From IMG/VR virus record IMGVR_UViG_3300045999_008943, positions 1 through 22,873 of that record: DNA of 22,873 nucleotides; one strand, given 5' to 3'. A program made the position numbers and the translations under genes. This DNA comes from a virus. Below are positions 6,132-22,873 of this stretch, in pieces (the first letter of the stretch is position 1; every line of letters starts with the position of its first letter). A model generated the notes under the pieces. The model made no database searches. It was not told the origin of the DNA and was given only the letters and a program-made list of their open reading frames with translations.

Positions 6132-6143
6132 CGGGAAGTCCCG
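6132..6143. repeat. Intergenic 12-base palindrome carrying GGGAAGT
   Basis: CGGGAAGTCCCG, with 5-base arms and a 2-base centre, lies in the 33-base gap between the genes at 5410-6114 and 6148-7032. It is the one GGGAAG copy I found outside coding sequence, so it cannot be explained by protein coding. Confidence 0.65.
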
Positions 6144-6147
6144 ATAG

Positions 6148-7059: not shown

Positions 7060-7791
7060 TTAAGCTGCGCGCCCCGCAATGTGCGGGCGGTTTTTGATTT
7101 GAATCTTAATTCCTGAAACATCAATTTTTAATGGATAGCCTTCTTGTTTTTTTCTAAAGAAATAACCTCCAGCGTGTTTTTGTTTACCATTAGCTGCGTC
7201 AATAACGCATCTACGATTTATGCTTAAAGCTTTTGCCGCGGCACTTAAGTAAGAATATTCAGCAATAAAATCACCATTTAAATCGTAAACCACAACGGGA
7301 ATATATTGCCTTTCCTTCGACTTTTTATGGCACTCAATAGACGGTTTTACGCCGTTTATCTTATTGTAAAAACTTACGCTTCTAGCGATTTTTTTCTTGG
7401 TTTCGTCTGATACTTTTTTGCCCCAGCTTGGCGCCTTTTCCCCTCTTCTCATTTTAGCTCTTTCTACCCTTGTCTTGTCGTTTTTCCAAGACTCACGATA
7501 GTCACCTCCACGAGTAAGGTTCATGCCGTCAAGATTTTCTGCTGCATAAGTCTTCAATTCAGCTATCCAATAAATCTCGCGTTCATTAAGTAATTCAACT
7601 GAAATATTATCTTCTATAACCTCAAAAATATGGGCATCCCATCCGTACTTTTCAATACTGCGAAGAATAAGGCTTTTACCCTTTTTCTTTCTTTTGCTTT
7701 TGTATTGAATAATACGTTCCTTTGCGGCCTTAGTTGTTTGACCAACATAAACCCTTTCGGTAGGACTTGTTATTTTGTATATTAAACCCAT
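7060..7791 (-). CDS. GIY-YIG homing endonuclease with NUMOD-type DNA-binding repeats
   Basis: A 243-aa protein from ATG at 7791; the longer frame to 7836 would start at GTG and add 15 residues of hairpin sequence. MGLIYKITSPTERVYVGQTT is a GIY-YIG core (LIY and YVG, residues 3-5 and 15-17). The catalytic Arg is probably in KERIIQY, and the metal-binding Glu is in LNEREIYWIAEL (about residues 68-79). A basic segment RRGEKAPSWGKKVSDETKKK (about residues 113-132) is NUMOD3-like. The region VVVYDLNGDFIAEYSYLSAA followed by AKALSINRRCV is NUMOD1-like, for sequence-specific DNA binding. Such free-standing enzymes cut an allele lacking the gene and spread by repair. It lies between the MCP and the following gene, has no GGGAAG motif and carries GC-rich hairpins at both ends, all consistent with recent insertion. 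Confidence 0.9.
   Translation of the reverse strand: MGLIYKITSPTERVYVGQTTKAAKERIIQYKSKRKKKGKSLILRSIEKYGWDAHIFEVIEDNISVELLNEREIYWIAELKTYAAENLDGMNLTRGGDYRESWKNDKTRVERAKMRRGEKAPSWGKKVSDETKKKIARSVSFYNKINGVKPSIECHKKSKERQYIPVVVYDLNGDFIAEYSYLSAAAKALSINRRCVIDAANGKQKHAGGYFFRKKQEGYPLKIDVSGIKIQIKNRPHIAGRAA
7070..7089. other. GC-rich hairpin at 3' end of endonuclease gene
   Basis: The sequence CGCCCCGCAATGTGCGGGCG forms an 8-bp stem with one bulged base and a 3-base loop. It overlaps the last codons of the endonuclease (NRPHIAGRAA). On the plus strand it is followed by GTTTTTG, giving a weak terminator shape, but no plus-strand gene precedes it. Confidence 0.5.
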
Positions 7792-7808
7792 TTTTTTAGT
7801 TACAAAGG

Positions 7809-7834
7809 GAGCCGCCCATGTGACTGGGCGACTC
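7809..7834. other. GC-rich hairpin between MCP and endonuclease
   Basis: An inverted repeat CGCCCA (7813-7818) and TGGGCG (7825-7830) encloses a 6-base loop. After one mismatch the stem extends by three further base pairs (GAG/CTC). It starts 15 bases after the MCP stop. The T-tract downstream on the minus strand is weak, so it may be an attenuator, an mRNA 3'-end stabiliser or a leftover of insertion rather than a full terminator. Confidence 0.55.
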
Positions 7835-7848
7835 ACCTAAGTTAATGA

Positions 7849-9318: not shown

Positions 9319-10539
9319 CTACGAGTTCTTCCAGATATACTCAATTTGCTTATCTAGCTCTGATTTAGAGGATGAAGGATTGAAGGTTGATTGGGCTGTC
9401 TGGGAAGTCACGCTTACGTTACTCGTCTTTTTGATGTACTCGGTCAACCGCTTGGATGCCGCATCATTGACAAATTTTTGGTTCATTTTACCATCGCTTT
9501 GTAAAAGCGTTAAGTCGCGGATAATCTGGTTGGTATTTAATTGATACCCTCCTTTCCCATCGTCTTTCAACCACCTTTCCGCCAATACCACATTAGCGTC
9601 AAAGTTAGCGTCTGCAAATCGTTCCAACTGCGAAGAAACTACACTTTTCTCTTCGTCTGATACAGCATAAGATAACGGTATCTCAACTTCCTCGTCTTTT
9701 ACCGATACATTAAAACCATCAAAAGAAGATAGCGCAGCTTTCGCGGACTCCTTGAACTGATTCATCAATGCTTCCGTAGCCTCCAATTCCTCTTGGGTGG
9801 GCTGGTAGTTTTGCGACTCGGATTCAAATTGTACGTCAGGAAGAACTAGCTCGTTTTTGAACTTCTCCAGCTCAGGCTTGGCAAGCTTTGCCTCGATAAA
9901 CATTTCTGTCTCGATGTCTTTTGCTTTGGCCTCCCAGCTCTGGAGTCGTTCTTGATATTCGTCATCTGTTTCCATATCACCTTGATTAGGCTTGTTGGGA
10001 ACAGAAAATTGTTTATTAAACTTATACTCAATTTCAGCAGGAGTTAAGTCCTTGTACTTTTGCTGCATATTGAGCTTGATAATTTCAGCGGCAGACCTTG
10101 TGTCTAAGTCAGTAATAGACGAAAGTCTGTCAAATTTCTTTTTGTTTTCCAAAAAAGAATAGAGGTCATCTTCTTTGCCTTCTTGTAAAAGCTTGAAGAA
10201 TTTAGCACTTTGCTCGTTGGCAAATTCTACTTCTGCTTGGGAAGATGAGCCTTCGCGAAGCTTGCGCAGTTCCTCTATTTCGGCCTTAGCGGCATCGGCG
10301 TTTTCCCAGCCAAATTGTGTTTTTAACCACTCATCTGCATCTACTACCTCTTCCTCGTATTCTTCTTGGGTGTCGGGGGAAGTTGTGGTAGTCTGCTCTT
10401 CTGGCTGTTGCGTTACATTGTTCGCAAAGTCTGGCGTTTCAGACCAAGCGTTGTCCGAAAAAGGATTGAAAGCTTGTACGTTTTCCTGTACAGATTCCTG
10501 TACATTCTCTTGAGGCGTGTTTGTTGTTGTTTCTGACAT
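9319..10539 (-). CDS. Putative capsid scaffolding protein
   Basis: A 406-aa, strongly acidic protein directly upstream of the MCP, the usual place of a scaffold. The N-terminal 75 residues are low-complexity Gln/Thr/Glu/Asn (NTPQENVQESVQENVQ, then EEQTTTTSPDTQEEYEEE), probably disordered. The rest is mostly helical and charged, for example ADAAKAEIEELRKLREGSSS, PAEIEYKFNKQF and QERLQSWEAKAKDIETEM, with likely coiled coils. The C-terminus is polar and ends in a basic-acidic helix, SKSELDKQIEYIWKNS, which could bind the capsid shell. Scaffolds are usually removed from the mature head. No protease motif was seen, so exit or cleavage by another protein is assumed. Confidence 0.72.
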   Translation of the reverse strand: MSETTTNTPQENVQESVQENVQAFNPFSDNAWSETPDFANNVTQQPEEQTTTTSPDTQEEYEEEVVDADEWLKTQFGWENADAAKAEIEELRKLREGSSSQAEVEFANEQSAKFFKLLQEGKEDDLYSFLENKKKFDRLSSITDLDTRSAAEIIKLNMQQKYKDLTPAEIEYKFNKQFSVPNKPNQGDMETDDEYQERLQSWEAKAKDIETEMFIEAKLAKPELEKFKNELVLPDVQFESESQNYQPTQEELEATEALMNQFKESAKAALSSFDGFNVSVKDEEVEIPLSYAVSDEEKSVVSSQLERFADANFDANVVLAERWLKDDGKGGYQLNTNQIIRDLTLLQSDGKMNQKFVNDAASKRLTEYIKKTSNVSVTSQTAQSTFNPSSSKSELDKQIEYIWKNS

Positions 10540-10563: not shown

Positions 10564-10995
10564 TTAGCTTAAGGTCAAACGATAAATTGTTTTAGCCGCA
10601 AGACCAGAAAGCTCTTGAGATCTATTTTCTACGTCAAGTAATTTTTTCTCACAAGCAAATTCGTATAAGTCATAAGAAAAATCAAGTAACTCTTTAACGA
10701 GTTTTACCGATGATTCGTGACCGCCGTACTTTGGAGCGGCAATTCGGTTCAAGGGGCCAAGACGCTTTCCGTCCATATAGCCCATTATTTTTTCTGGGAT
10801 ATCGTCAGAGAAGTCCTCGAGTCCTTCGTATAATTTACCGAGCGCGTCGTGCTCCCATCCGCCTTTAGTTTGCTGATGAAATTCGTGAGCGGCATCGTGG
10901 AAGTAGAATAATCTATCGCGGATTTCTTCGGGTGTAAGGGAAGTCTTGACTTTCGCCTCTTCCCCAGACATTCTGATTTTAGCTGTAATTGCCAT
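10564..10995 (-). CDS. Dps/ferritin-like protein (probably DUF5856)
   Basis: A 143-aa, mostly helical protein. Residues 20-70 carry the pattern of ferritin-like folds: RLFYFHDAAHEFHQQTKGGW (residues 28-47) then EHDALGKLYEGLEDFSDDIP (48-67). H33, H37, H40, H49, D61, D65 and E68 are candidate metal ligands. The C-terminal half (SVKLVKELLDFSYDLYEFAC) supplies the remaining helices. A family like this, catalogued as DUF5856, occurs in crAss-like phages near capsid genes. Possible roles are metal storage, protection of DNA or a packaged virion protein; none is shown here. The gene overlaps the upstream small gene by one base (TAATG) and is separated from the scaffold by 24 bases. Confidence 0.72.
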   Translation of the reverse strand: MAITAKIRMSGEEAKVKTSLTPEEIRDRLFYFHDAAHEFHQQTKGGWEHDALGKLYEGLEDFSDDIPEKIMGYMDGKRLGPLNRIAAPKYGGHESSVKLVKELLDFSYDLYEFACEKKLLDVENRSQELSGLAAKTIYRLTLS

Positions 10996-11375: not shown

Positions 11376-11729
11376 TTAACAGATTTTGTAAAGCCTTACC
11401 AATGCTTTTGTAACAGTTACAGAAGTTCCAGAAAGCTGAAGGAAACGACCGATATATCCAAAGCGGACAAGTCCTGATGCTGCTAGGGAAGATACGGCGG
11501 TACCAGAAGCGAGATTGGTACCCTGAACAGCCACGAAATTGGTAGCCGAAACGGCTGATCCATCGGATACACCCTCTACGTCTCCAGAATCGTTAGTGTG
11601 CAAGAAATTGACCGTACCGCTAGGGCTTACTAAATGAACAATTGCATAGTCAAATCCACCCGTGTCAAGTTGGACTTTGGAGTCGGCGTTGAAGTCTGCC
11701 GTAACGTCTAATACTATTTGAACTGACAT
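11376..11729 (-). CDS. Small beta-rich virion-region protein, 117 aa
   Basis: A 117-aa protein starting MSVQIVLDVTADFNADSKVQ. It is rich in Val, Ser, Thr and Gly, with alternating hydrophobic residues (FDYAIVHLVSPSGTVNFLHT; LVRFGYIGRFLQLSGTSVTV), as expected for a beta sandwich. It ends LVRLYKIC. There is no signal peptide, helix or catalytic motif. It lies between two small head-region genes, so a minor capsid or decoration protein is plausible, but the identity is unknown. Confidence 0.62.
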   Translation of the reverse strand: MSVQIVLDVTADFNADSKVQLDTGGFDYAIVHLVSPSGTVNFLHTNDSGDVEGVSDGSAVSATNFVAVQGTNLASGTAVSSLAASGLVRFGYIGRFLQLSGTSVTVTKALVRLYKIC

Positions 11730-12032: not shown

Positions 12033-14471
12033 TTATTGTTGGGGAAGTTGTGGTTCTTGCATCATTTGTTCTTCTGAGGGCATTTCGCCTTGCGGCATTT
12101 CTTCCCCCGCACCCATCTGCTGCTGCATAGCTGCTGCCATTTGCATCTTAGCAAGTACTTCTTCTTGTTTTTCTTGGGAAGATATGGCTGCCGACAAGGC
12201 TACATTTTCCATCACAGCCTGAATTAAAGGCTGAATTTCTGGCGGAATCGGCTGGCCTGTTTCCATGTGCTTTAGATAGGCTTGGGTCGCCATCTGAAGC
12301 ACAGCCGTTTTATTTTGAGCATTAGCGGCTGTTTCCGCTCTCTTCATATCCATTAAGCCTTCTTGCTCTTTGGTAGCTCTTTTTTCTTGTTCTGCTATTT
12401 GGGCAGCCTGTATCTGGCCTTGAATTGTTGCTTCTTGATTTTGGGCAAGCTTTGTCTGATTATAGATAATCATTTTCTTCTGCGATCTTCTAAATAAGGC
12501 TTCCGCCAGCTTGACGTCCTCTTTTGCCACCCGCATAATTTGGAATGGGTCTAAGAAAAGCACTAGGTCGGGGGAAGATGCGAGAGCCTGATTAAGCATA
12601 GCCTCAAAACGAGTTAGCTCATACTGGTCAGGAAGCATCTGTATTCTTGCATTAAAGATGCGGGTAGCAATTTCGCTGTTATCGACCTTTACGATATCGC
12701 GATACACGCTTGCGCCGTACATTACAGATGTCTTGAGAAGCGAGGCAACCTTTTTGGCGGTTTCCGCCATACAATTAGTGTATGCCCAATAAAAGTAATC
12801 GGTGGCGTTTTGAGCTACCTGCTCTGCGGTGTTAATATTAGATACAGCAACGCGAGGCTGGATGGCGGCAGCTATGAGGTTCGGGTCTTCCCCTAACTCG
12901 TCTTTCAAAATCTGATAGTGCTTATCGTACAGAAGAATAAGTCCTTGCAGTTGTGCCAAGAAGCCAGAATTTGAAAGCTCTTGGATGGGAACAGGAACGG
13001 CATTCCCTTCCGCATCTCTACCTCTATAATATATATCTCCAGTCTGATCAAATAGCTTTTTAACATCGATGCCCTTGTTTTGGTCACCTAGTCCGTAATC
13101 TATATTTTGCAGAGCGTCCCAATTGACAGCAGCCCCAGTAGGACGCATCTTTGCCACTAATTGCTGCATCTTTAAACGAGCAATAATCATCTGGTCTACC
13201 GGCTCTTGAATTTTTTCTGGGATGGCTAGGGAAGTCATATCGTAGTTCTGTACCATATAGAATGTGTACGAGAACTCAGAATTTCCAATCTCCTTGGGGT
13301 CTTGTGGACGAATCATATTAGTCTTCAACCCCCACTCAAGCATTGTATTCGTAGGACGGCAATAAACCCCGCGATAGATATTCCACTTTGTATCAGAAAT
13401 CAGTTTTTCGTTTTCGGCAATCTTTTCTGGCCTGCCTTTCTTAAGTATCGTGCTTTTATTCTTCTTAGTTGTTACAACGGTGTAATCATCTTTGTCAACA
13501 GTCTTTAACTCAAACTCAATAACATCGATATTCCATTCATCGTAAGGGCGAAGGAAGGTTACGTTCCACTCGGTTAGCCAAGTAATATTGTCGTAAAGCT
13601 GAAACTCTTTAGAGAATTGAGCCATCTTGAAAATATCTTCCTCGCTAACCTTGCCCCCAAACTCGACGCCATACTTTCTTCTCAGTTCGCTAATCTTGTA
13701 GGTTCTTACAACACCACGCCAAGTAGTATCTCTAAAATCGGGATAAGTAGAGTAAGAGTAAAAACAATTCTCAGGCTTTAGCCATTCAACGTGAATAACA
13801 CCTTGATCGTCCATCCAAGTATAAGTGCCTACAAACCCTGTTTCGGCGCTGTCGTGCAGCATTTTTTCTTTCAGCGTATCAAACCATCCATTTGCGGCCA
13901 ATACATCGTTGCACGCCATTTCGTATCCAATCTCTTCTGGCAAACGCTGGAATTGCATTTTCCAGAGCTTTAGCTCTTCTTTATCTTCAGGGAGATTTTC
14001 GTCTTCGGGAAGAAGTGGCACACCCGACTCTTGTTGCAAGCGCTCAAGCATTGCTCTGTTTTCGAGTATAAACTCGAGGTCTTCGTATTCTTTTTGCTTC
14101 TGGGTTGTAGATATACTATCTACTGCGGTTACTTTAATTTTTTCACTACGGGTCATCCAGCGACCAACAAGGCCAGACACAATTCGATTAACTATGTTTA
14201 TTGACTGCCAGTTAATATTTAAGTAGTTGACCTTGCCGTTAAACTCAAGCAAATCTTGGAACTTACTCATTGGAACACGGCCATTCGCATAACCGCGATT
14301 AGTTCTCCAGCGAGCATTGCGAACCCAAAAATAACTAGAGATACCACCCCTGATGGTCGAATCAATATAAATCGCTAGCCGCTTCCCGTATTCCCAATCA
14401 GATTTTTCCTTGATGGTTAGTTTGGGATCAAGCTGAAACGTCTTTAATGGCTGAGCAGAGTAATCCTGCAT
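12033..14471 (-). CDS. Portal protein
   Basis: An 812-aa protein, the size of crAss-like portals, placed between TerL and the head proteins. The start MQDYSAQPLKTFQLDPKLTI leads to a helical N-terminal region. A basic/aromatic segment (SSYFWVRNARWRTNRGYANG, about residues 40-59) and a later segment, MVQNYDMTSLAIPEKIQEPV (about 405-425), are typical of portal stem/wing regions. The C-terminus is helical and Gln/Ala/Met-rich (QKTKLAQ-like stretches; AKMQMAAAMQQQMGAGEEMP), resembling a long portal barrel or crown tail. The gene is preceded by a 55-base A/T-rich gap holding a promoter-like -7 box (14492-14499). The portal is the DNA channel at one capsid vertex where the terminase docks. The call rests on size, context and general pattern. 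Confidence 0.85.
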   Translation of the reverse strand: MQDYSAQPLKTFQLDPKLTIKEKSDWEYGKRLAIYIDSTIRGGISSYFWVRNARWRTNRGYANGRVPMSKFQDLLEFNGKVNYLNINWQSINIVNRIVSGLVGRWMTRSEKIKVTAVDSISTTQKQKEYEDLEFILENRAMLERLQQESGVPLLPEDENLPEDKEELKLWKMQFQRLPEEIGYEMACNDVLAANGWFDTLKEKMLHDSAETGFVGTYTWMDDQGVIHVEWLKPENCFYSYSTYPDFRDTTWRGVVRTYKISELRRKYGVEFGGKVSEEDIFKMAQFSKEFQLYDNITWLTEWNVTFLRPYDEWNIDVIEFELKTVDKDDYTVVTTKKNKSTILKKGRPEKIAENEKLISDTKWNIYRGVYCRPTNTMLEWGLKTNMIRPQDPKEIGNSEFSYTFYMVQNYDMTSLAIPEKIQEPVDQMIIARLKMQQLVAKMRPTGAAVNWDALQNIDYGLGDQNKGIDVKKLFDQTGDIYYRGRDAEGNAVPVPIQELSNSGFLAQLQGLILLYDKHYQILKDELGEDPNLIAAAIQPRVAVSNINTAEQVAQNATDYFYWAYTNCMAETAKKVASLLKTSVMYGASVYRDIVKVDNSEIATRIFNARIQMLPDQYELTRFEAMLNQALASSPDLVLFLDPFQIMRVAKEDVKLAEALFRRSQKKMIIYNQTKLAQNQEATIQGQIQAAQIAEQEKRATKEQEGLMDMKRAETAANAQNKTAVLQMATQAYLKHMETGQPIPPEIQPLIQAVMENVALSAAISSQEKQEEVLAKMQMAAAMQQQMGAGEEMPQGEMPSEEQMMQEPQLPQQ

Positions 14472-14526: not shown

Positions 14527-16599
14527 CTATCTTGCTGTGTTTGCGTAAACCCTAATTAATGGCGTTTGAGGTGGAGCTGGCTTATAGATAGGCTCCAACC
14601 CGCCAACGAGCGCAATCATTGCGCTAACTGTTCTGTCGCTTGGAGTACGCTTAGACGGGTCGTAGTTCTTGAGGTCTTCGAGTAATTCTATCCAGTATAT
14701 TTTTTCGCAATAGTGTTCAATATAACTAATCATCGTGTCGTTTTGCTTAGTCATAGCAAAATCAGTAATTGGGAAGCCGTAGTGCCTTTCTTGATTTGAG
14801 GCGGTGCTTTTTTTGTTCGGGTCTATCGCATTAATCGGAAACTTTGCTAAATACCCCAGCTTGCCTCTTGACTTGAAATAGGTATAATAATCATCGGCCA
14901 CAAATTCGTAATAGCATTGAAATCCTAGATACTCTGCGGCTAGAAGTATTTGATTATGAAGCTCGTCCTTCTCTTGCGGTCTTCCGTAAAGGTGAGCGGT
15001 AAACAACCCTGTATTTTCTGGATCTCTTAGGTCGTATTTTAAGTATACCCAAGCAGAAGCTTTAGAGCCGTATTTTTTACCACCCTGCGAATTTGAGTAT
15101 CCATCAACCCCTATCACGCCCACATCTGTTCTGGAAGGCTTTTTTATCCCATTATCCCAATAGTGTTTATTTGATTCGCTTGCTCTAAGGTCGCCTATAA
15201 ATTCCCAGCAGAAATTTTGCTCGGTCTCCTTGGCGTCCCTCCACTTTATACTTTGGGTCACTTCGTCTCTAAAAAATAAAACTTTTCTTTTGAAGACTGT
15301 TTGTTCTTTCAGCTTCTCTATTTGTTCATTTAATTTTACAACATTGAAAATACAATCGGCGTTTGCCGACATAAAAGCCTCTACCTCCGTACAAGGGTTC
15401 ATACGGATTTCTTCCTCAAGGTCGTCGCCGCTTCTTCCCTCTCGCCTCTTAACAATATAAGCCTTAGAGCCTAGTTCTATATCCTCTTCACTAATTTCAC
15501 TTATTGTGTTTCCGTCTTCGTCTTTGACCACCCATTTTTCTACCAGATAAGATTTTTGTTCGGGTGTAGGGGAATCCGTGACAGAGAATCCATACTTGTC
15601 TATAAATCCCTCGTATCCGTCATAAGCGGGACTAAAATATCTCACCAAGCGGTTAACCGTAGGGGAGCGCTTACCCAGATCCGCGTTTTCCCATAACAAC
15701 TTAAACTCGGAACCACCCTTTGATAGCTTATTGACCGTAGAGGGCATTTCCACAAAACCGACACGCTTAACACCCTTTACAAGCGTCTTAGAAATAATAG
15801 CAAAAAGCTGAGACGCCTGCACTTCTTTTTCTAGCTTTCCAAACTCGTCTAGTAGCAAACGGCTCATACGACCCCTATCGTATGCATTTAGAACAGGTGC
15901 TCGGTAGTTAATTTTCGATCTATTGCCTTCGTCCTCCTTTTGGGTGGCAGCGCTTCCCTCCCTTACATTTGATGCCTTTTGGGCAAAGACAAGCTCGGTT
16001 ACGCTATCTTCTCGGTTTATTTGCTTTGGCTTTAGAAACGCTGGCAATTGCCTATACCCATACGCCACCATCTCCGTAAACGTAGCCCGGCCATCCTCGT
16101 TAGATTTAGATACCAGACCGCAGTTAGAGTTTTTGTAAAAGATGGCCTCGTAGACGAGATTTGAAGTTGCTTGGGAAGATGCACCCTCACGACGTTTCTT
16201 GGAGCGGATAATTCCGAGAGCCCACGGCACATTTTCCCAATGCTCTAAATAAGTAAAATAACGCCTATCACAATCCCTATATTCTGGCCTAGACCCATCC
16301 TCTAGTGTCCACCATTGAAGATAAAAATAGTATTTCCTTGTAATGTAGTATGGCTTACCGCAGATAAAGACCCATACGCCTTTTTTGCATCGCTCTAGCT
16401 CTCTTATTGCATAATCCTCTTGCTCTTCGGTAAGTATTAAATCTCCCGTTTTGGTATACTCTACCTTGTCAAAGTATTCTGGCAAATCCTCCCTAATCCA
16501 CATTTGCTCTTCCTTGGGCTTATCCCAGTTAAGAATTTTATCGTGCGGGGGAAGTTCTGGTATCCTACATTGCGTACCATATATTAACTCCGTAGCCAT
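14527..16599 (-). CDS. terL: Terminase large subunit (ATPase and nuclease)
   Basis: A 690-aa protein that packages DNA at the portal. The N-terminal ATPase contains a Walker A-like loop IIRSKKRREGASS (residues 130-142), where an Arg/Lys-rich stretch precedes Gly-Ala-Ser-Ser in place of the classical GKT/S, as in crAss-like terminases. The Walker B motif is RLLLDEFG (247-254), with D251 and E252. The C-terminal RNase H-like nuclease has acidic residues in VGVIGVDG (D499), EFVADDYYTYF (D569/D570) and PSDRTVSAMIALVG (D655), with cutting of concatemers as the expected role. The ATG overlaps the stop of the upstream 43-aa gene (TAATG). Length and motif order are complete. Confidence 0.92.
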   Translation of the reverse strand: MATELIYGTQCRIPELPPHDKILNWDKPKEEQMWIREDLPEYFDKVEYTKTGDLILTEEQEDYAIRELERCKKGVWVFICGKPYYITRKYYFYLQWWTLEDGSRPEYRDCDRRYFTYLEHWENVPWALGIIRSKKRREGASSQATSNLVYEAIFYKNSNCGLVSKSNEDGRATFTEMVAYGYRQLPAFLKPKQINREDSVTELVFAQKASNVREGSAATQKEDEGNRSKINYRAPVLNAYDRGRMSRLLLDEFGKLEKEVQASQLFAIISKTLVKGVKRVGFVEMPSTVNKLSKGGSEFKLLWENADLGKRSPTVNRLVRYFSPAYDGYEGFIDKYGFSVTDSPTPEQKSYLVEKWVVKDEDGNTISEISEEDIELGSKAYIVKRREGRSGDDLEEEIRMNPCTEVEAFMSANADCIFNVVKLNEQIEKLKEQTVFKRKVLFFRDEVTQSIKWRDAKETEQNFCWEFIGDLRASESNKHYWDNGIKKPSRTDVGVIGVDGYSNSQGGKKYGSKASAWVYLKYDLRDPENTGLFTAHLYGRPQEKDELHNQILLAAEYLGFQCYYEFVADDYYTYFKSRGKLGYLAKFPINAIDPNKKSTASNQERHYGFPITDFAMTKQNDTMISYIEHYCEKIYWIELLEDLKNYDPSKRTPSDRTVSAMIALVGGLEPIYKPAPPQTPLIRVYANTAR
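16545..16561 (+). repeat. 17-base exact repeat, copy 1 (contains GGGGGAAGT)
   Basis: GCGGGGGAAGTTCTGGT occurs here, inside terL, and again at 19023-19039 inside a methyltransferase gene. In terL the core codes Glu-Leu-Pro-Pro and in the other gene Arg-Thr-Ser-Pro, so the two copies are in different codon frames. Confidence 0.85.
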
Positions 16600-16730
16600 T
16601 AAGACCTGCCTTGACCGCGATATACTCGCGATTTTCTATCGTGCTTATTTCTGCTTTTTTGGGCTTTGCCTCCTTTTGTTTTAAAGAAGACTACCTTGTT
16701 GTTGGTGCCGCTAGATTTTGACTTTGCCAT
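16599..16730 (-). CDS. Small basic protein before TerL, 43 aa
   Basis: A short frame from ATG 16730 to TAA 16599-16601, starting MAKSKSSGTNNKVVFFKTKG and ending RKSRVYRGQGRS. It is rich in Lys, Arg, Ser and Asn. The stop overlaps the terL start (TAATG), and the previous gene's stop is 1 base upstream of the ATG, which supports a real, translationally coupled gene. Function is unknown; DNA or RNA binding is possible. Confidence 0.65.
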   Translation of the reverse strand: MAKSKSSGTNNKVVFFKTKGGKAQKSRNKHDRKSRVYRGQGRS

Positions 16731-16731
16731 A

Positions 16732-17058
16732 TTATTCTCTTACGTCTGCGATTCTATCAAGAAATGGTTTTTTCTGCTCTTCTTTCTTAAAGCCAATGCT
16801 TTCCCTCAATGACTTTATTGACTCGCTTACTGCGCTACTCTTTTCAAGTATCTTAAAGATTCTCTCAAAGCTCTTGTCCTTGGCGTCATCAATATTTACA
16901 TTCTTAAGATTTACGCTATTTAGCAGATCGGCCATCTCATTTGCCTTTCTTTGCAGGCTATAAAACAGCTTTTCCACGCCATTGCTTCTATACGCCTCAA
17001 GCTCCTTTTCGAGCTCGGCTATTCTGTCTTCAAGAATTTTTTTTGCTGCGTCTGTCAT
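16732..17058 (-). CDS. Coiled-coil protein upstream of terL (small-terminase candidate)
   Basis: A 108-aa protein that is almost wholly helical. AAKKILEDRIAELEKELEAY (residues 4-23) is a clear heptad coiled coil, followed by VEKLFYSLQRKANEMADLLN and a second helical stretch (SFERIFKILEKSSAVSESIK). The C-terminus is charged (FKKEEQKKPFLDRIADVRE). Small terminase subunits are short helical oligomers coded just upstream of terL, and this protein fits by size and position, but no DNA-binding helix-turn-helix was recognised. It could equally be a structural or regulatory coiled-coil protein. It overlaps the preceding gene by 4 bases (ATGA). Confidence 0.55.
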   Translation of the reverse strand: MTDAAKKILEDRIAELEKELEAYRSNGVEKLFYSLQRKANEMADLLNSVNLKNVNIDDAKDKSFERIFKILEKSSAVSESIKSLRESIGFKKEEQKKPFLDRIADVRE

Positions 17059-17714
17059 TGTATCGGTTTTGCGGTAGATGGGCTTAGCCCTATAAGTAGT
17101 TTGCCGTTGTTATACAAATCGGTCAAATCGTTTCTTACTGCTATTACCTCTTCTCTTTCATGGTCTTCGTCGGGGAAGTGGCGGAATCGAATTAGCCTAT
17201 CCTCACGACCATCAAGCCCCTGAAAGATAATCTCATAATCACAAGCCTTGAGGGTTTGAACAATGCCGCCCGCCAACTCTCCTGTTGTTACATATAGCAC
17301 ATCAGGCACAAGGGTTGGCTCAATACCCTCAATTAAACCATCATAGGGCCTGTAAACACGAAGACCAAAATCAAAGCTTTTGAGTGGCCTCCACGTTTCT
17401 CCATCTAGCCACGCAAAACACTTCTCAATTGGAACTGAAAAGTATTTTATATCACTACTTTCTACCTCACCAGAAAGTCTGGTCCTGTCAAAAATCTTGT
17501 AAGTGTCATGCGTGACGTTTGGGTGAATCAAGATTTGACTGCCAGACTCTATGTCTTCTCCGTCAATAACAATAGCATTAACGGGTTTTGTTTCTCTTTG
17601 GTTTAAGTTGTTGTACTCTCGTTCTAGCCTGATCTTAGTGCCATCCGAAAACGTATGGCTATTTTTGCTTTCTAAGTCAACGCTAATAACAACTCGTCCC
17701 TCTACTGCGAGCAT
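17055..17714 (-). CDS. Conserved beta-rich phage protein (219 aa)
   Basis: A 219-aa protein, MLAVEGRVVISVDLESKNSH at the start. The first 75 residues show a barrel-like pattern (VVISVDLESKNSHTFSDGTK; PVNAIVIDGEDIESGSQILI) that resembles a GroES-like fold. The rest is rich in Gly, Tyr and Asp (FDFGLRVYRPYDGLIEGIEP; YVTTGELAGGIVQTLKACDY). I recall similar sequences in phages and prophages of Bacteroidota, without known function. No catalytic motif was recognised. It overlaps the coiled-coil gene by 4 bases and is preceded by a 25-base gap, so it belongs to the pre-packaging operon. Confidence 0.6.
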   Translation of the reverse strand: MLAVEGRVVISVDLESKNSHTFSDGTKIRLEREYNNLNQRETKPVNAIVIDGEDIESGSQILIHPNVTHDTYKIFDRTRLSGEVESSDIKYFSVPIEKCFAWLDGETWRPLKSFDFGLRVYRPYDGLIEGIEPTLVPDVLYVTTGELAGGIVQTLKACDYEIIFQGLDGREDRLIRFRHFPDEDHEREEVIAVRNDLTDLYNNGKLLIGLSPSTAKPIQ

Positions 17715-17739
17715 AAGCGTTTGTTTGTTTAATATAAAG

Positions 17740-18012
17740 TTACTGCTTTTTTGCGGACTTTGCAGCTCTCATAAGCGGGCTTTCCATTCTTTTTTTTGAG
17801 ATGTAATCTTTAGCCAACTTATCTACTCTTTCTTGATTTGCCTTTTCCATAAGCTCCTTTTTCACCTTATCGGCTTCGGCTTTAGGAATTACAATTTTAC
17901 CTACTGGCTTCTTTTTGCCATAAAAATCTTCAGCCTCAAGGGCTTTTACTAGATCGGCTTCTCTTTTTTTGTCGGCCGCTGTTGGCCTGTCTTTTGGTAA
18001 CTGCTGTGGCAT
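17740..18012 (-). CDS. Small charged coiled-coil protein, 90 aa
   Basis: A 90-aa protein with about one third Lys and Glu: MPQQLPKDRPTAADKKREAD, then a helical EADKVKKELMEKANQERVDK and a basic end (KKRMESPLMRAAKSAKKQ). It has an A-rich leader with no Shine-Dalgarno sequence. It lies two bases after the upstream DUF6321-like gene. Size and charge suggest a nucleic-acid-binding or packaging accessory protein, but the identity is unknown. Confidence 0.62.
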   Translation of the reverse strand: MPQQLPKDRPTAADKKREADLVKALEAEDFYGKKKPVGKIVIPKAEADKVKKELMEKANQERVDKLAKDYISKKRMESPLMRAAKSAKKQ

Positions 18013-18014
18013 TT

Positions 18015-18326
18015 TTATTTATTTTTATTGCGTTCAGAAATGTTTTTGGCTTTCGCTTTAGCATCTGCCTTCGAAGAGGCGCCCCAAGCACGAAGAGATA
18101 AAAGTAGTCGGGTAGGCTTTCCATCCTTGTACTCTGGCCCCGGCATACCGCCCATACGAGCGAGGAAGCTTGCTCTGCGGGGATTGTCTCCAGACTTAAC
18201 AGGAGCTTTTAGGGTACCACCTGTTTGAGCCTTATAGGATTCGCGACCCTTCTTATTTAAGCCGCCTTCAGGGTTCTTCCCTTCTTTTCTAGACCAAGCG
18301 GCTGTTTTAAATCTTAACTTAGGCAT
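18015..18326 (-). CDS. DUF6321-like phage protein, 103 aa
   Basis: I place the start at ATG 18326 (MPKLRFKTAAWSRKEGKNPE), because the longer frame to 18389 overlaps the upstream methyltransferase by 41 bases. The pattern WSRKEGKNPEGGLNKKGRES (residues 11-30), followed by KAPVKSGDNPRRASFLARMG, is typical of a small phage family catalogued, I believe, as DUF6321. It is basic and rich in Gly and Ser. Its role is unknown; phages often code it near packaging genes. It ends with an Arg/Lys-rich helix (KAKNISERNKNK). Confidence 0.72.
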   Translation of the reverse strand: MPKLRFKTAAWSRKEGKNPEGGLNKKGRESYKAQTGGTLKAPVKSGDNPRRASFLARMGGMPGPEYKDGKPTRLLLSLRAWGASSKADAKAKAKNISERNKNK

Positions 18327-18348
18327 ACCTATCTTTTGATACCCAAAT

Positions 18349-18870
18349 TTACAATTTTTTTGCGACCAAATAAAAAGAATACTTATCATCCCCTACATCA
18401 AGACCGTGCTCTATAATTTCAAAATAGGGTAAAAAATAAGGGTGACCAGTAAAGTTAAGCGCCTCCCCGCAAAAGGTGCGCTTAAACCAAAACAAAAAGT
18501 CCTCGTATTTGATGTCGTGAAAATGCTCCGGGTTTTCCTTATTAGGGTAGTGGTCTCCGTCTGGTAGGTAAAGGATGAAATAACCTCCCTGCTTTAAGAG
18601 CTTAGACCACTCCAATATAGCCCTAAAATGATCTGGAAGATGCTCTAGGACGTGAGAGCTAAAGCAACAATCAAACGACTCTAAAAGCTCTGGGAACTTT
18701 GTATCAAGGTCGTACAAGCTGGTGGTTGTTTTTTGGACGTGGGGGAAAACGCGACCATCAATCCCGACCGCGTGCTGGCAGACGAGTTCGTCTCCGCAGC
18801 CAATATCAACGACTTCCCCGACTAAGTACTTGTTTATTTTCCACCTAATTTTTGCTGATTCAGTTGCCAT
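18349..18870 (-). CDS. SAM-dependent class I methyltransferase (173 aa)
   Basis: A 173-aa methyltransferase-like protein with motif I VVDIGCGDE (residues 20-28) for S-adenosylmethionine binding and an acidic end of strand 2 at VGIDGR. The motif SSHVLEHLPD (71-80), followed by LLKQGGYFILYLPDGDHYPN (91-110), is the strand-4/strand-5 region of Methyltransf_11-type small-molecule enzymes. The DNA-methyltransferase (D/N)PPY motif is absent, so DNA is an unlikely substrate; a sugar, lipid or small molecule is more likely. It lies next to another methyltransferase and two glycosyltransferases. It ends FYLVAKKL, a typical last strand. Confidence 0.82.
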   Translation of the reverse strand: MATESAKIRWKINKYLVGEVVDIGCGDELVCQHAVGIDGRVFPHVQKTTTSLYDLDTKFPELLESFDCCFSSHVLEHLPDHFRAILEWSKLLKQGGYFILYLPDGDHYPNKENPEHFHDIKYEDFLFWFKRTFCGEALNFTGHPYFLPYFEIIEHGLDVGDDKYSFYLVAKKL

Positions 18871-18871
18871 T

Positions 18872-19396
18872 TTATTTTTTTATGCCCCAAAAGTATAGAT
18901 CGCAAGAAGGGCTGGTTTGTACTGTAAATTCATATTGTTTAAAATAATGACTAAAATCAATAGCCTTATCTACGTCTTCAATACCTAGATTTTTATAATA
19001 ATCATTTGTGTAAGGTGAGTCGGCGGGGGAAGTTCTGGTTGTACCGTGTTCTGGTCGACCCGTCGTAGCGCAACTAAAAAGCATTAGCCCGTTTGCCTTC
19101 GTCAGTTTAATCATATTATTTAAAGTCTTAGGCCAAAACTCGTCGTGTTCGAGGCACTCCGTAGAAATTACCACATCAAATCCGTGCGCATCGTTTACTT
19201 CGTGACCCCTGCAAACTAAGTCCACGTTTTCCCCATACCCTATATCCACTCCCAAATACTTATAGTTATCAAAAAGATACCTGTTATTCCCGTTTAAGTC
19301 CAAGGAGCCAATATCTAAGACCCTGCAATTAATAAACCTTTCAGGAAATTTTGATTTTACCTGAAGTAAATATTTTATCTGTGCTTCGTGTGCCAT
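18872..19396 (-). CDS. SAM-dependent class I methyltransferase (174 aa)
   Basis: A 174-aa protein with motif I RVLDIGSLDLNGNNRY (residues 25-40), in which GSLDLNGN replaces the common GxGxG, and YLGVDIGYGENVDLV (47-61) holding the acidic residue at the end of strand 2. VVISTECLEHDEFWPKTLNN (75-94) is the strand-4/helix region, and ANGLMLFSCATTGRPEHGTT (101-120) is strand 5 with a loop. This matches Methyltransf_11/FkbM-like small-molecule enzymes. The gene overlaps the end of the glycosyltransferase by 22 bases and ends one base before the next methyltransferase, so the three are probably one coupled unit. Its likely substrate is a sugar or glycoconjugate, by context only. Confidence 0.78.
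   Translation of the reverse strand: MAHEAQIKYLLQVKSKFPERFINCRVLDIGSLDLNGNNRYLFDNYKYLGVDIGYGENVDLVCRGHEVNDAHGFDVVISTECLEHDEFWPKTLNNMIKLTKANGLMLFSCATTGRPEHGTTRTSPADSPYTNDYYKNLGIEDVDKAIDFSHYFKQYEFTVQTSPSCDLYFWGIKK
19023..19039 (+). repeat. 17-base exact repeat, copy 2 (contains GGGGGAAGT)
   Basis: The same GCGGGGGAAGTTCTGGT as at 16545-16561, here in a methyltransferase gene and in a different codon frame. The flanking bases differ, so it is not a longer duplication. Confidence 0.85.
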
Positions 19397-20814
19397 TCAA
19401 TAGCTTTAATTACCTGATCGGTGCCGTATTTAGCGCAAGGGGGATAATTTGAATCAATATAACAATCCGAACTTTCAACCCCTATTTGTTCGTGCCAGCA
19501 GTAAGGTTTGTTACAAATTGGGTTTTCGGCAGAATGATTAGTAAGAACTGTTTTATTAGACAGTTCCACATGGACTATCTCGGGATTAGTGTTGCCAAAA
19601 AAGATAATTGATGGGACATCGAACCCGGAGGCGATGTGGCTAACCCCGCTGTCAATCCCAATAAATAGGCTAGCGCTTGCCACAACATAGCATAAAAAAT
19701 GCTCGTTTATAGTATTAACGTAGGTAGCGTTTTTGATAAGGGGCACATTTCTTTTTCCTACTTGAAAAACCGAATACCCGTTGTTTTTTAAATGCTCTAC
19801 CACGGCTTCCCAATCCACCCCAAAAACATTCCTCCCAGATTGTCTAATTCCTTCAAGGTGTATAACGCAAGCCTTTTGAAACAACTTAGTTCCAGCGTGA
19901 ATCTCAAAGCCTAAGTGTAATTTAGGATTTCTCATTTCTCCGTCATCGATGCCGCAGAATTGGTAGTAGCTCAATAATCTATTTTGTTTTGGTAGGGCTT
20001 CATAGGCCATATCCAAGTTGTAGTGTTCCGCCTCGGGCAACAATCTTCCGTCTACTTTACTTATGTGATGTACAGGGAAGTAGTGGTTCACAAAAAGCAT
20101 ATAAAACTGCTCAGGCGTGTCAAGTACCACCCTGTAACCTCTTTTGTGAAAATGGTGTAAAACGGGCTCAACTAAGATAACATCACCCATAGCTGCGCTG
20201 CGCTTAATAACAACGGTTTTCTGAAATGGCTTGTGGAACCTGCCATGAAAGCCGAAGGTATCATACATAGGCGTACGAAGCTCAAACGCGAACCTATCCG
20301 CAAGGTCTTCGTCGGGAAATTTAATGTCGTATTTTTTAACAAGATAATCTCTATACAAACGCCCTATCGCTTGATCTTCTGGGTCTGAAGCAAAAATAAA
20401 ATCATCTTTTGCGAGTACGTCTTGAAGCTTTTTAGACCTAAGAGAAAAACCGCCATTCCCCACATTTTTGCCGTCTGTATAAAGCCAAGGAGATCCTATA
20501 TAATCGTAGTTTAAAAAATCTTCCCGCCAAGATTTTCCATTTAAAACATATCCATCGTGCTGAATGAGCAAAACAAATTCCGTATCAAAATGCTTGTTTA
20601 ATTGCTTGATAATAAATTCCGAATACTCTTCCTTTGACCTGATGCTGGGTATAGTTACAATATCAATGTCTTTAAAATGGAATTTTCTATCGGTTAAAAA
20701 CCTTACGGACGCAAAATCACATTCGGTCATACTTTTTCGTATAGCCGCTAATGCTTCGGCGTGCCTTGAGCAGTCAACGCATATTAGGGTTACCTTATCT
20801 AGGTTTGGCTTCAT
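19375..20814 (-). CDS. Fused DUF5672 and GT9-type glycosyltransferase (479 aa)
   Basis: A 479-aa two-domain protein. Residues 1-195 match the DUF5672 family linked to glycosyltransferases: FVLLIQHDGYVLNGKSW (80-96), YDYIGSPW (103-110) and VGNGGFSLRSKKL (118-130). Residues 200-479 look like glycosyltransferase family 9: TVVIKRSAAMGDVILVEPVL (200-219) is the N-terminal Rossmann start, and FIGIDSGVSHIASGFDVPSI (384-403) with IFFGNTNPE is the typical C-terminal nucleotide-sugar site. Two separate sugar-transfer modules in one chain are unusual. Likely substrates are a surface polysaccharide, a virion glycan or a modified base. The gene overlaps the following methyltransferase by 22 bases and the preceding 41-aa frame by 20 bases. 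Confidence 0.82.
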   Translation of the reverse strand: MKPNLDKVTLICVDCSRHAEALAAIRKSMTECDFASVRFLTDRKFHFKDIDIVTIPSIRSKEEYSEFIIKQLNKHFDTEFVLLIQHDGYVLNGKSWREDFLNYDYIGSPWLYTDGKNVGNGGFSLRSKKLQDVLAKDDFIFASDPEDQAIGRLYRDYLVKKYDIKFPDEDLADRFAFELRTPMYDTFGFHGRFHKPFQKTVVIKRSAAMGDVILVEPVLHHFHKRGYRVVLDTPEQFYMLFVNHYFPVHHISKVDGRLLPEAEHYNLDMAYEALPKQNRLLSYYQFCGIDDGEMRNPKLHLGFEIHAGTKLFQKACVIHLEGIRQSGRNVFGVDWEAVVEHLKNNGYSVFQVGKRNVPLIKNATYVNTINEHFLCYVVASASLFIGIDSGVSHIASGFDVPSIIFFGNTNPEIVHVELSNKTVLTNHSAENPICNKPYCWHEQIGVESSDCYIDSNYPPCAKYGTDQVIKAIEWHTKHR

Positions 20815-20920
20815 TCCAAGATTTTTTAAGTCTACGGTAGACTGTTTTAGTTTTGTCGGGGGAATTGGCGGTAATCGATTGAGCTAACTTTCTGAGTTTC
20901 TTAGATACTTTTTTTCTCAT
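20795..20920 (-). CDS. Small basic protein, 41 aa
   Basis: A frame from ATG 20920 (overlapping the upstream TGA as ATGA) to TAA at 20795, overlapping the glycosyltransferase start by 20 bases. It reads MRKKVSKKLRKLAQSITANS at the start and has the YRRLKKSW pattern, common in tiny basic phage proteins. Overlaps at both ends fit translational coupling. The role is unknown, and a short size makes the call less certain. Confidence 0.52.
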   Translation of the reverse strand: MRKKVSKKLRKLAQSITANSPDKTKTVYRRLKKSWNEAKPR

Positions 20921-21138
20921 TGTTTCCAGTTTATAGGTATTTCAATATCAAATCCCTTGCCGTGCATCGGGTTTCCGTATACGCGAATATCGTCTGAGTT
21001 GTAATGTTTTATAAGTCCACCCTCAAGCCTAACCAGCCAAATTGTGTTTACGTCAATTCCGTAATCAATAATTAATATAGCTTCCCCTTCTCCGTGTGGA
21101 GTGTGTACGGGAAGTGGTGTTTTAAATTCGTGTATCAT
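20917..21138 (-). CDS. Small unknown protein, 73 aa
   Basis: A 73-aa protein: MIHEFKTPLPVHTPHGEGEA, then ILIIDYGIDVNTIWLVRLEG and a C-terminal Lys/Gly-rich part ending EIPINWKQ. It looks like a small beta barrel of about five strands, without a signal peptide or catalytic motif. Its ATG overlaps the stop of the DUF1599-like gene by 4 bases, and its stop overlaps the next start, so it is coupled to both neighbours. Function is unknown. Confidence 0.62.
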   Translation of the reverse strand: MIHEFKTPLPVHTPHGEGEAILIIDYGIDVNTIWLVRLEGGLIKHYNSDDIRVYGNPMHGKGFDIEIPINWKQ

Positions 21139-21455
21139 TTCACTTTTTTACTTTCCAAATAAGCCGCAAAAAGCATCGCATAATTAGCTAAGTCAAGCAG
21201 CGTATCTTTTACGCTTTCATCCTTCACCACAAGTTCTCCCCGCTTAACAAAAGACCCTATCCTTGCCATCTTATCGGTCATTCTTGTTACAAATCCCTTT
21301 TCGGTTTCTATCCCAAACGACTCTACCGCCCTAAAGTTAGCAAATGGATCTATTGTATCCTTGGCGCCAGTATAGTCTTGGTTCTTCTTTTGCATCGTGC
21401 CAATACAAGACCCAAAGAACTCTTCAGCAAATTTCACTAATTCCTCTCGGTTCAT
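21135..21455 (-). CDS. DUF1599-like (nucleotide-modification-associated) protein
   Basis: A 106-aa helical protein with the pattern KKNQDYTGAKDTIDPFANFR (residues 23-42), VTRMTDKMARIGSF and ESVKDTLLDLANYAMLFAAY (80-99). The paired DYxG...DPFxNF...DK...DxxxDxxNYA layout matches DUF1599, also called nucleotide modification associated domain 1, which is found in phages with modified DNA. A related all-alpha fold, the MazG/dUTPase-like NTP-pyrophosphatase, suggests nucleotide binding or hydrolysis. The gene overlaps both neighbours by 4 bases. Its presence is a hint, not proof, that this phage alters nucleotides. Confidence 0.74.
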   Translation of the reverse strand: MNREELVKFAEEFFGSCIGTMQKKNQDYTGAKDTIDPFANFRAVESFGIETEKGFVTRMTDKMARIGSFVKRGELVVKDESVKDTLLDLANYAMLFAAYLESKKVK

Positions 21456-22258
21456 TTTATCATTTTATTAAAGTAAAACTCCACCCCGCCCTGATGGTAA
21501 AAGTCGTAAGCGTTTTCCCCTATTGGGACGACATTGGGCATCATCGGGAAAAGTTCTAAAATCCGAGGCACCTTTAGCGCTTCGGCTATTTGAAAACAAA
21601 AGCTTTGATTGCCCAAAAAAAACTTGCAATGCTTGATATTTTGCGCCAAATGGTAGAAGTTGTCTGGCTCCAACAGCGGTATATCGAGGTTCCAGTTTTT
21701 GCAAAACAAATCCCTCTCCTTGGCTAGACCAGCAAAGACCAGCTTATCCTGATGCTCCCTTAAAAAGAAGTAGTTAATCAGGTAGTTTCTATGCCTTTGG
21801 GTAAAGTTTATGATGACCTTGTCGGTCGGCTGCACGAATTTTATTGTCTCGGGAAGTTCTATCCAAGGCTTAGAAAGGTCGGAAGCCATTTGCGGGAAGG
21901 CGTAGTTAAACCAGCGGTTCAGACACCCCTTTGGCTGGTTAGTATAGTGCTGCATCCGAATAAGGTCAAAATCGACGTCCACGTCTTCCCCCGCATACAC
22001 CAGAAAATCTTCGATATAAGGCTGTTCTTTTAGTAGCGGGTAGAGCATATCGAACATATACTGCGACATACAGATAGGCTCGTCAAATTCGTTTTTAAAG
22101 GGATGGATACTGCCATCATAGCTAGCCCCCTGCATCCCTATTCTTTGATAGACAACACCCTTTCGGCCTGTATCCTCCCACATCTTTTTAATCCCAGCTA
22201 AAAAGCTTATAAGATCGCCAGAAGGGGAAGAGGTTTTGTATTTTAAGGGAATTTTCAT
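21452..22258 (-). CDS. Glycosyltransferase-like protein (268 aa)
   Basis: A 268-aa protein, first of the minus-strand glyco-cluster after the divergent region. MKIPLKYKTSSPSGDLISFL begins it. The segment TDKVIINFTQRHRNYLINYF (146-165) and the C-terminal HCKFFLGNQSFCFQIAEALK (210-229), followed by VPRILELFPMMPNVVPIGEN, resemble the C-terminal nucleotide-sugar half of GT9/GT-B enzymes, with a Gly-Asn-Gln in place of the usual Asp-Ser-Gly. The N-terminal half is less conserved. It probably transfers a sugar in the same pathway as the fused glycosyltransferase. An inactive or divergent enzyme is possible. Confidence 0.66.
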   Translation of the reverse strand: MKIPLKYKTSSPSGDLISFLAGIKKMWEDTGRKGVVYQRIGMQGASYDGSIHPFKNEFDEPICMSQYMFDMLYPLLKEQPYIEDFLVYAGEDVDVDFDLIRMQHYTNQPKGCLNRWFNYAFPQMASDLSKPWIELPETIKFVQPTDKVIINFTQRHRNYLINYFFLREHQDKLVFAGLAKERDLFCKNWNLDIPLLEPDNFYHLAQNIKHCKFFLGNQSFCFQIAEALKVPRILELFPMMPNVVPIGENAYDFYHQGGVEFYFNKMIK

Positions 22259-22629: not shown

Positions 22630-22795
22630 ATTGTCTAAACTTTTCAACCAAATCAGATAGCTCTTTTTCCTTTTGTGTTAGGGAAGTCCTAACAATCTCT
22701 TTTAGCTTGTTTAATAACGCAACTTGCTCAGAAATATCAAGTTGAATAATTTGCTCAACGACTCGATCGGCGTTGATTTGTTTTTTTCTTGCCAT
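22628..22795 (-). CDS. Small coiled-coil protein, 55 aa
   Basis: A frame from ATG 22795 to TAA 22628: MARKKQINADRVVEQIIQLD at the start, then helical LLNKLKEIVRT and a charged helix KEKELSDLVEKF. The ATG overlaps the stop of the upstream partial gene (TAATG), which supports it. Its stop lies inside the terminator of the plus-strand gene. It is probably an all-helical oligomer. Function is unknown. Confidence 0.62.
   Translation of the reverse strand: MARKKQINADRVVEQIIQLDISEQVALLNKLKEIVRTSLTQKEKELSDLVEKFRQ
22677..22693. repeat. GGGAAGT copy inside a 17-base inverted repeat
   Basis: GTTAGG (22677-22682) and CCTAAC (22688-22693) flank GAAGT. A similar dyad is present at 6132-6143, CGGGAAGTCCCG, where it is intergenic. 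Confidence 0.55.
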
Positions 22796-22873
22796 TAGTC
22801 AATGTATTTGTTTCTTAAAAAATAGGAGATTAGCTGGGCGGTATTTTTGCAGTTGAATTTAGCCCTAAGAAGC
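22795..22873 (-). CDS. Partial gene at right edge (C-terminal 25 residues)
   Basis: An open minus-strand frame enters from the right edge and ends with TAA at 22795-22797, overlapping the next ATG. The visible residues are AKFNCKNTAQLISYFLRN followed by KYID. This resembles the recognition helix region of LuxR-type helix-turn-helix domains (KNTAQLxxY), but the piece is too short to be sure. Confidence 0.45.
   Translation of the reverse strand, partial: LLRAKFNCKNTAQLISYFLRNKYID

Follow-up and report, generated by a model that had tools for sequence, protein, structure and literature searches.

A dispersed, asymmetric DNA motif under selection in one phage clade, and a phage helix-turn-helix protein as its possible reader

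The window is the whole stretch of viral DNA analysed here (22,873 nucleotides; IMG/VR record IMGVR_UViG_3300045999_008943, positions 1–22,873). Its terL and methyltransferase genes, both on the minus strand, share the exact 17-mer GCGGGGGAAGTTCTGGT at positions 16545–16561 and 19023–19039, as an earlier note on this DNA had pointed out. Translation confirms that the two copies are read in different frames (TerL, ...PELPP...; methyltransferase, ...TRTSP...). The related copies placed by that note at about 10376 and 12041 are indeed the next best matches, TCGGGGGAAGTTGTGGT (10373–10389) and GTTGGGGAAGTTGTGGT (12038–12054). Four copies are an understatement of the extent of this family: the 17-mer pair belongs to a dispersed DNA motif that has about 50 copies in the window. 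The sites are listed below with their weight-matrix scores, together with a gene at the end of the contig that is considered further on.

1713–1734, plus strand, motif site, score 19.4
2271–2292, minus strand, motif site, score 18.7
2486–2507, plus strand, motif site, ATTCCC core variant, score 13.8
2572–2593, minus strand, motif site, score 11.7
2885–2906, plus strand, motif site, score 20.0
3319–3340, minus strand, motif site, score 11.1
3349–3370, minus strand, motif site, score 10.3
3522–3543, plus strand, motif site, score 19.1
3604–3625, plus strand, weak motif site, score 9.2
3673–3694, plus strand, motif site, score 17.3
4096–4117, minus strand, motif site, GTTCCC variant, score 18.1
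4151–4172, plus strand, motif site, score 11.0
5112–5133, minus strand, motif site, score 13.4
5836–5857, minus strand, motif site, score 16.8
6125–6146, minus strand, motif site, score 19.3
6278–6299, plus strand, motif site, score 14.2
6409–6430, plus strand, motif site, score 13.5
6849–6870, plus strand, motif site, score 13.5
8572–8593, minus strand, motif site, score 18.3
9394–9415, minus strand, motif site, score 16.6
10369–10390, minus strand, motif site, TACCACAACTTCCCCCGACACC, highest score of the window, 24.7
10930–10951, minus strand, motif site, close opposite-strand pair with 10951–10972, score 18.7
10951–10972, plus strand, motif site, partner of 10930–10951, score 16.9
11478–11499, minus strand, motif site, score 17.4
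12034–12055, minus strand, motif site, AACCACAACTTCCCCAACAATA, 3′ end of the portal gene, score 22.0
12093–12114, plus strand, motif site, score 20.1
12168–12189, minus strand, motif site, score 17.9
12564–12585, minus strand, motif site, score 19.7
12879–12900, plus strand, motif site, score 15.4
13221–13242, minus strand, motif site, score 15.9
13999–14020, minus strand, motif site, score 18.1
15426–15447, plus strand, motif site, score 17.3
15562–15583, minus strand, motif site, score 11.7
15679–15700, plus strand, motif site, score 15.5
16165–16186, minus strand, motif site, score 14.4
16225–16246, plus strand, motif site, score 13.9
16541–16562, minus strand, motif site in terL, TACCAGAACTTCCCCCGCACGA, first copy of the exact 17-mer, score 21.5
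17165–17186, minus strand, motif site, score 17.3
18735–18756, minus strand, motif site, score 17.9
19019–19040, minus strand, motif site in the methyltransferase gene, AACCAGAACTTCCCCCGCCGAC, second copy of the 17-mer, score 21.4
19220–19241, plus strand, motif site, score 16.4
19798–19819, plus strand, motif site, score 13.7
20067–20088, minus strand, motif site, score 18.5
20852–20873, minus strand, motif site, score 18.6
21101–21122, minus strand, motif site, score 16.2
21843–21864, minus strand, motif site, score 13.3
21977–21998, plus strand, motif site, score 20.0
22673–22694, minus strand, motif site, intergenic, score 17.7
22795–22872, minus strand, last 25 codons and stop of a GerE/LuxR-type helix-turn-helix gene, candidate reader of the motif (tblastn, relatives 80%–83% identical)

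An alignment of all CTTCCC contexts gives a consensus of about 20 bases, RYCRYRW-CTTCCC-CMRMM, which continues into a tail of some 15 bases rich in A and poor in G; the 20 bases carry about 17 bits of information, and sequence representations are CCACAACTTCCCCCAC and RYCRYRWCTTCCC. Among the 6-mers of the window, CTTCCC shows the strongest over-representation (28 copies on the coding strand, 5.8 expected). Whole-genome EM was run with a third-order background; without a higher-order background it fell onto codon periodicity. The weight matrix, trained on three relatives with the window left out, finds 48 sites in the window, compared with 9.8 ± 2.3 after synonymous-codon shuffling, which preserves proteins and codon usage, and five in the reversed sequence. 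Sites occur on both strands roughly once per 400 bases (roughly 2.5 per kb). They are mostly intragenic, and in most contigs the intergenic share is about that expected from length. Sense and antisense copies are about equally frequent, and the A-rich, G-poor tail lies downstream of the motif in both gene orientations. Rfam and tRNA searches of the window found nothing.

The earlier note considered a chance 17-base match very unlikely. Dinucleotide shuffles yield 0.03 matches to the 17-mer pattern (three mismatches or fewer), but codon-aware nulls are more realistic for such a repeat. At least one 17-base direct repeat arises somewhere in 14 of 400 synonymous and 14 of 400 codon-shuffle simulations, and in up to 24 of 200 fourth-order, 3-periodic ones, or about 4%–12%; an unrelated exact 17-mer pair is also present in the window (10306/21033). 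The improbability was therefore overstated for the pair alone, which is only mildly surprising; the family of copies is decisive.

Genomes throughout a clade of environmental phages, with TerL identities of 79% or more, are filled with the motif, and TerL relatives at 56% identity or less lack it. Of eight clade contigs tested, seven have CTTCCC as their top-ranking 6-mer and one has it in second place. In group A genomes the density is 2.4–3 sites per kb (0.2–0.35 in reversed controls). The core is conserved 2–4 times above controls, although sites turn over: TTCCC is retained at 56%–75% of group A sites, compared with 13%–34% for reversed CCCTT. Spacing depends on strand. In group A, pairs of sites within 100 bp are depleted to about a third of the expected number when they share a strand, and enriched about 1.5-fold when they lie on opposite strands; in group B the effect is weaker but still significant. 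No helical phasing of paired sites was found.

Outgroup phages show no dispersed motif with an extended consensus, only enriched single k-mers (GCTGTC in G023, CCCGTA in L031). The strict pattern gave 26 scattered matches across all viral contigs, none convincingly enriched. Phage isolates have no DNA match to the window; at the protein level, Cellulophaga and Flavobacterium phages are only 24%–27% identical. The extended consensus, weight matrix and survey of relatives, which the earlier note had suggested as a check, thus bear out its proposal that the copies share a signal in the DNA and are not homologous as protein: the consensus is independent of frame and gene orientation and is conserved and enriched in relatives, and composition- or codon-aware models fail to explain it. 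That this is a DNA-level motif under selection is near certain.

In bacteria, no enrichment was found in >600 Bacteroidota genomes, i.e. a set of 395 and a set of 249 from the order of a Crocinitomicaceae genome. These have 0–9 and 0–1 matches per genome, respectively, where the phage density would give hundreds (looser pattern). Across the 84,980 species scanned, matches scatter like chance and no locus or genome hit is enriched. No TerL relatives were found in bacterial genomes.

The helix-turn-helix gene at 22795–22872 continues beyond the contig end. The full-length protein in relatives, encoded for instance at L252:3651–3872, has 74 residues and matches Pfam GerE (PF00196) with E = 3.5e-6 and 27.0 and 24.8 bits, above the curated cut-off of 23.5. 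Its predicted structure has the four helices of a LuxR-type fold (pLDDT 83), and the best PDB matches to the model are the HTH domains of RhlR, VraR, LiaR and GerE (query-normalised TM 0.7–0.8), with a best Foldseek E-value of only 0.011. In group B the recognition helix reads NRNTFAYHLRF in place of NKNTFAYKLQL, and the group B variant of the motif has C-A before CTTCCC. Every long clade contig that spans the locus has the protein, and outgroup contigs lack it. All 14 contigs found to encode the protein carry the motif, including two found via the protein only. This co-occurrence is confined to one clade, and the association is therefore not phylogenetically independent. The gene lies at the divergent early/late junction, with a putative host-type promoter (TTTG..TATCTTTGC, read from the sequence) just upstream. 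In group A genomes its promoter region has no motif site, unlike that of a classical autoregulator. Other clade-specific genes, e.g. a Lin1244-type replication protein and short unknowns, are alternative reader candidates, and a host protein could also be the reader. The clade phages also encode a primase-helicase.

We tentatively favor, as a possibility somewhat short of probable, a dispersed, asymmetric, phage-specific element bound genome-wide by a protein, the best candidate being the small helix-turn-helix protein of GerE/LuxR type that the phage itself encodes. Selection maintains a copy of the motif roughly every 400 bp, on either strand, usually within coding sequence and regardless of frame. 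Given the equal frequency of its sense and antisense copies, the motif acts as DNA and not through mRNA or protein. The likeliest mechanism is that a sequence-specific protein binds all along the viral genome, where it would organise, compact or mark the viral DNA. A symmetric dimer of the candidate could join two asymmetric sites, which would explain the tendency of close neighbors to lie on opposite strands.

It is rather unlikely, but worth weighing, that the element works on each strand separately during replication, recombination or packaging, as a Chi-like, priming or loading signal required on either strand at intervals of a few hundred bases and read by a phage or host replication or recombination protein. 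Sites on one strand tend not to lie closer together than about 100–150 bp while the strands are otherwise equally supplied, as though each had to have a set of its own; the motif is asymmetric with a G-poor, A-rich downstream strand, and the primase-helicase and Lin1244-type protein would fit such a role. However, an element of about 17 bits and 20 bases is longer than known primase or Chi signals, which are short (3–8 bases), and a signal of this kind does not predict opposite-strand clustering.

Stoperator-like silencing, in which a helix-turn-helix regulator on many sites blocks transcription elongation, appears improbable. Repressors of cluster A mycobacteriophages bind 24–34 asymmetric 13-bp sites per genome (PMC3029335), and the position of the helix-turn-helix gene at the early/late junction would suit a regulator; the present sites, however, are mostly intragenic, equal in both orientations and several times denser than stoperators.

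A motif owned by the host (an uptake signal, Chi or other chromosomal code) to which the phage has adapted is distinctly improbable as well. Its core with a downstream AT-rich tract, on both strands, intragenic and at about 1–2.5 per kb, resembles the Haemophilus uptake signal. Pasteurellaceae phages carry the uptake signals of their hosts (PMC6776037). Yet the motif follows phage phylogeny, and none of the sampled bacterial genome sets and scans above shows enrichment. That the motif merely reflects codon usage, codon-pair bias or composition is hardly credible: genes prefer some motif phases and fourth-order Markov models account for some of the surplus of CTTCCC, but synonymous shuffles fall far short of the observed site count, the long extended consensus occurs in several frames and equally in sense and antisense, and strand-dependent spacing and site conservation contradict it. 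An RNA-level function (ribosome binding site, terminator or Rho site) was rejected on the equal frequency of sense and antisense copies.

A motif with >100 intragenic copies per 45 kb that does not come from a sampled host would mean that some viral process, e.g. compaction, self-recognition, replication or packaging, reads the whole genome. With its strand-aware spacing, the motif may possibly constitute a virus-specific, genome-wide address code by which a phage protein coats, folds or identifies the whole viral DNA. Bacterial chromosomes are known to carry selected DNA codes that span the genome (uptake signals, Chi, KOPS); nothing comparable to such an address code was found in the literature searched.

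Uptake signal sequences combine an asymmetric core with a downstream AT-rich tract and occur within genes in hundreds of copies, on either strand, at about one per kb. The phage motif shares this anatomy with the Pasteurellaceae signal. It has no sequence similarity to the uptake signal, is confined to one phage clade with strand-dependent spacing, and was not found at high density in any sampled bacterial genome. Stoperators likewise are asymmetric sites dispersed over a phage genome, and are bound by a phage-encoded helix-turn-helix protein, where here the binder is a candidate only; they lie mainly between genes and point one way relative to transcription (PMC3029335), in contrast to the dense, intragenic sites in both orientations described here. 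Architecture-imparting sequences, KOPS among them, are short words of chromosomal DNA that are over-represented and under selection, octamers with a leading-strand bias that increase towards the terminus (PMC5993296). The phage motif is longer and viral, and within the contigs its strands are balanced and its density is roughly even. No phage GerE-type protein tied to a genome-wide intragenic motif is known in the literature searched. Lambda NinH is a phage-encoded Fis-like nucleoid protein, a NAP mimic (PMC7166090). Like NinH and the GerE (PF00196) proteins, the candidate reader is a small stand-alone helix-turn-helix protein, although it belongs to a different HTH family from NinH.

An exact 17-base sequence is present in terL (positions 16545–16561) and in the methyltransferase gene (19023–19039), in the differing reading frames that an earlier note had described, and the two related 14-base copies claimed there were also found. 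The further claim that a chance match is very unlikely holds only moderately for this pair, since some 17-base direct repeat arises in 3.5% of synonymous or codon shuffles of the window, and simulations under a 4th-order periodic model contain one in up to 12% of cases. Taken alone, the pair is not overwhelming evidence; the motif family as a whole is far outside chance. (A second exact 17-base repeat, CCAGCCAAATTGTGTTT, at 10306–10322 and 21033–21049 in two unrelated genes, is probably due to chance because it is absent from all relatives examined.)

No 6-mer in the window exceeds its expectation under synonymous-codon shuffling, which preserves every protein and the codon usage, as strongly as CTTCCC, the motif core as read on the coding strand. 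The alignment and weight-matrix checks proposed in the earlier note both bear this out. All 46 CTTCCC contexts in the window, when aligned, display a consensus spanning −6 to +9 and beyond. A matrix trained on three other contigs only, with the window held out, finds 48 sites, as compared with 9.8 ± 2.3 in synonymous shuffles (maximum 17) and 5 in the reversed sequence. In the closely related contigs (group A, ~270 kb) the consensus is RYCRYRW-C-TTCCC-CMRMMA, with TTCCC almost invariant; the density is ~2.5 sites per kb and the information content ~17 bits. In group B, whose TerL is about 80% identical to that of the window, the motif is related, but its left side is less pronounced and its A at −1 more so. 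Further downstream, bases +9 to +26 of the motif strand are rich in A and poor in G for sites in either orientation relative to the gene; thus the full element is asymmetric and about 35 bases long.

The motif occurs on both strands and is mostly intragenic, equally frequent in sense and antisense, and broadly even in density over contigs up to 70 kb. The strand order of sites is non-random: same-strand neighbors closer than 100 bp are below expectation in every genome, and opposite-strand neighbors are above it. Within 100 bp, contig G009 has 5 same-strand neighbors (16.3 expected) and 29 opposite-strand (16.4 expected), and G005 has 3 (17.2) and 27 (17.5). Group B departs less from expectation, e.g. 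68 (84.7) and 102 (83.5) in G014. Some orthologous sites are counted in more than one genome, so that these genomes are not independent, but almost every genome shows the effect when taken singly. No helical phasing of sites was found.

Between group A contigs (75%–82% nucleotide identity), TTCCC cores are unchanged at 56%–75% of sites, as compared with 13%–34% for the reversed pentamer CCCTT and 26%–40% for any pentamer, and 20%–48% of sites are without a counterpart at the aligned position. Such purifying selection with turnover is the mark of a dispersed code rather than of single regulatory sites.

The virus is related to Cellulophaga and Flavobacterium phages, and in the collections searched is represented by environmental contigs only. 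The motif is found in all contigs whose TerL is at least 79% identical to that of the window (weaker in the short AT-rich contig L017), and is absent from TerL relatives at 56% identity or less and from Cellulophaga phage phi38:1. One of these outgroup phages, G023 (L241–L243), is strongly enriched in GCTGTC (67 vs 24) and in CCGGCA; no extended consensus was found, and these may represent a different dispersed word.

Among 84,980 species of bacteria and archaea, the strict consensus gave 90 scattered matches, with no locus among them enriched. A looser pattern, which occurs at 66–219 per Mb in group A and at phage density should give several hundred matches per bacterial genome, gave 0–9 per genome in 395 Bacteroidota, similar to its reversed control; for a tighter pattern, each of 249 genomes from a single order had 0–1. 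Judged by the bacterial and archaeal genomes sampled, the motif is probably not host-derived. A Bacteroidota-type promoter-like sequence (TTTG ... TATCTTTGC), recognized by eye upstream of one gene, that of a small helix-turn-helix protein, in five related contigs (G003, G005, G007, G009, G017), suggests Bacteroidota as the host phylum. It stops a few bases short of the ATG of this gene, which suggests that the early transcript has little or no leader.

Features of the window considered here are:
3545–3808, phage-encoded GroES-like co-chaperonin (phrog_3188)
7060–7836, GIY-YIG-like endonuclease gene (YKITSPTERVYVGQT) adjoining the major capsid gene, recognized by eye
18349–20814 and 21452–22258, methyltransferase-like and glycosyltransferase-like gene cluster, between the terminase region and the contig end
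22795–22872, helix-turn-helix gene, last 25 codons only

Genes similar to the endonuclease gene are dispersed among structural genes in relatives G017 and G014, which suggests homing endonucleases. The methyltransferase-/glycosyltransferase-like cluster is typical of surface or DNA modification, its putative role. CCWGG does not occur in the window (~27 expected) and is missing in nearly all motif-bearing relatives (L003–L016, L018–L023). Words containing GATC are likewise missing from G013 and G023, and the phi38:1 stretch has no CTGAAG; to judge by word counts, this is strong restriction-site avoidance.

The helix-turn-helix gene, first on the structural-gene side of a divergent junction, is one of those common to groups A and B and undetected in outgroups. 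Its 71–74 residue product, a candidate reader of the motif, is a GerE/LuxR-type helix-turn-helix protein: it matches Pfam PF00196 (GerE; 27.0 bits, cut-off 23.5), and its four-helix model (pLDDT 83) resembles LuxR-type domains and GerE. A search of all viral contigs yielded 14 with the protein, two of them missed via TerL, and the motif is present in 14/14. Groups A and B differ in and beside the predicted recognition helix (NKNTFAYKLQL vs NRNTFAYHLRF) as well as in the motif; the parallel would fit a reader of the motif, yet represents one evolutionary split only.

We think it most likely that this protein binds along the entire viral genome and would thereby fold, coat or mark the DNA. A two-fold symmetric dimer bridging two asymmetric sites would favor opposite-strand pairs. 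The analysis establishes the motif, its selection, its restriction to the clade, its strand pattern and its co-occurrence with the protein, from which binding, the geometry of the dimer and the function are inferred. Against this protein as reader, no independent protein–motif pairs were found outside the clade, and in group A genomes the promoter region of its own gene has no motif site; another clade gene, e.g. that of the Lin1244-type replication protein, is a possible reader.

Among known systems, the nearest in phages are the mycobacteriophage stoperators, which are sparser, mainly intergenic and in one orientation (PMC3029335); the motif is several times denser and displays neither of the latter two features, which define stoperators. 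Pasteurellaceae uptake signals, which phages of these bacteria also carry (PMC6776037), are closest in anatomy; the trait that defines them, occurrence in the genome of a host, was not found for the motif in the bacterial genomes sampled. Architecture-imparting octamers are strand-biased (PMC5993296), unlike the phage motif, whose sites are balanced between the strands of the contigs. The motif thus belongs among the dispersed genome-wide DNA codes, already known as a kind, and there is a sizeable chance that it represents something new in viruses.
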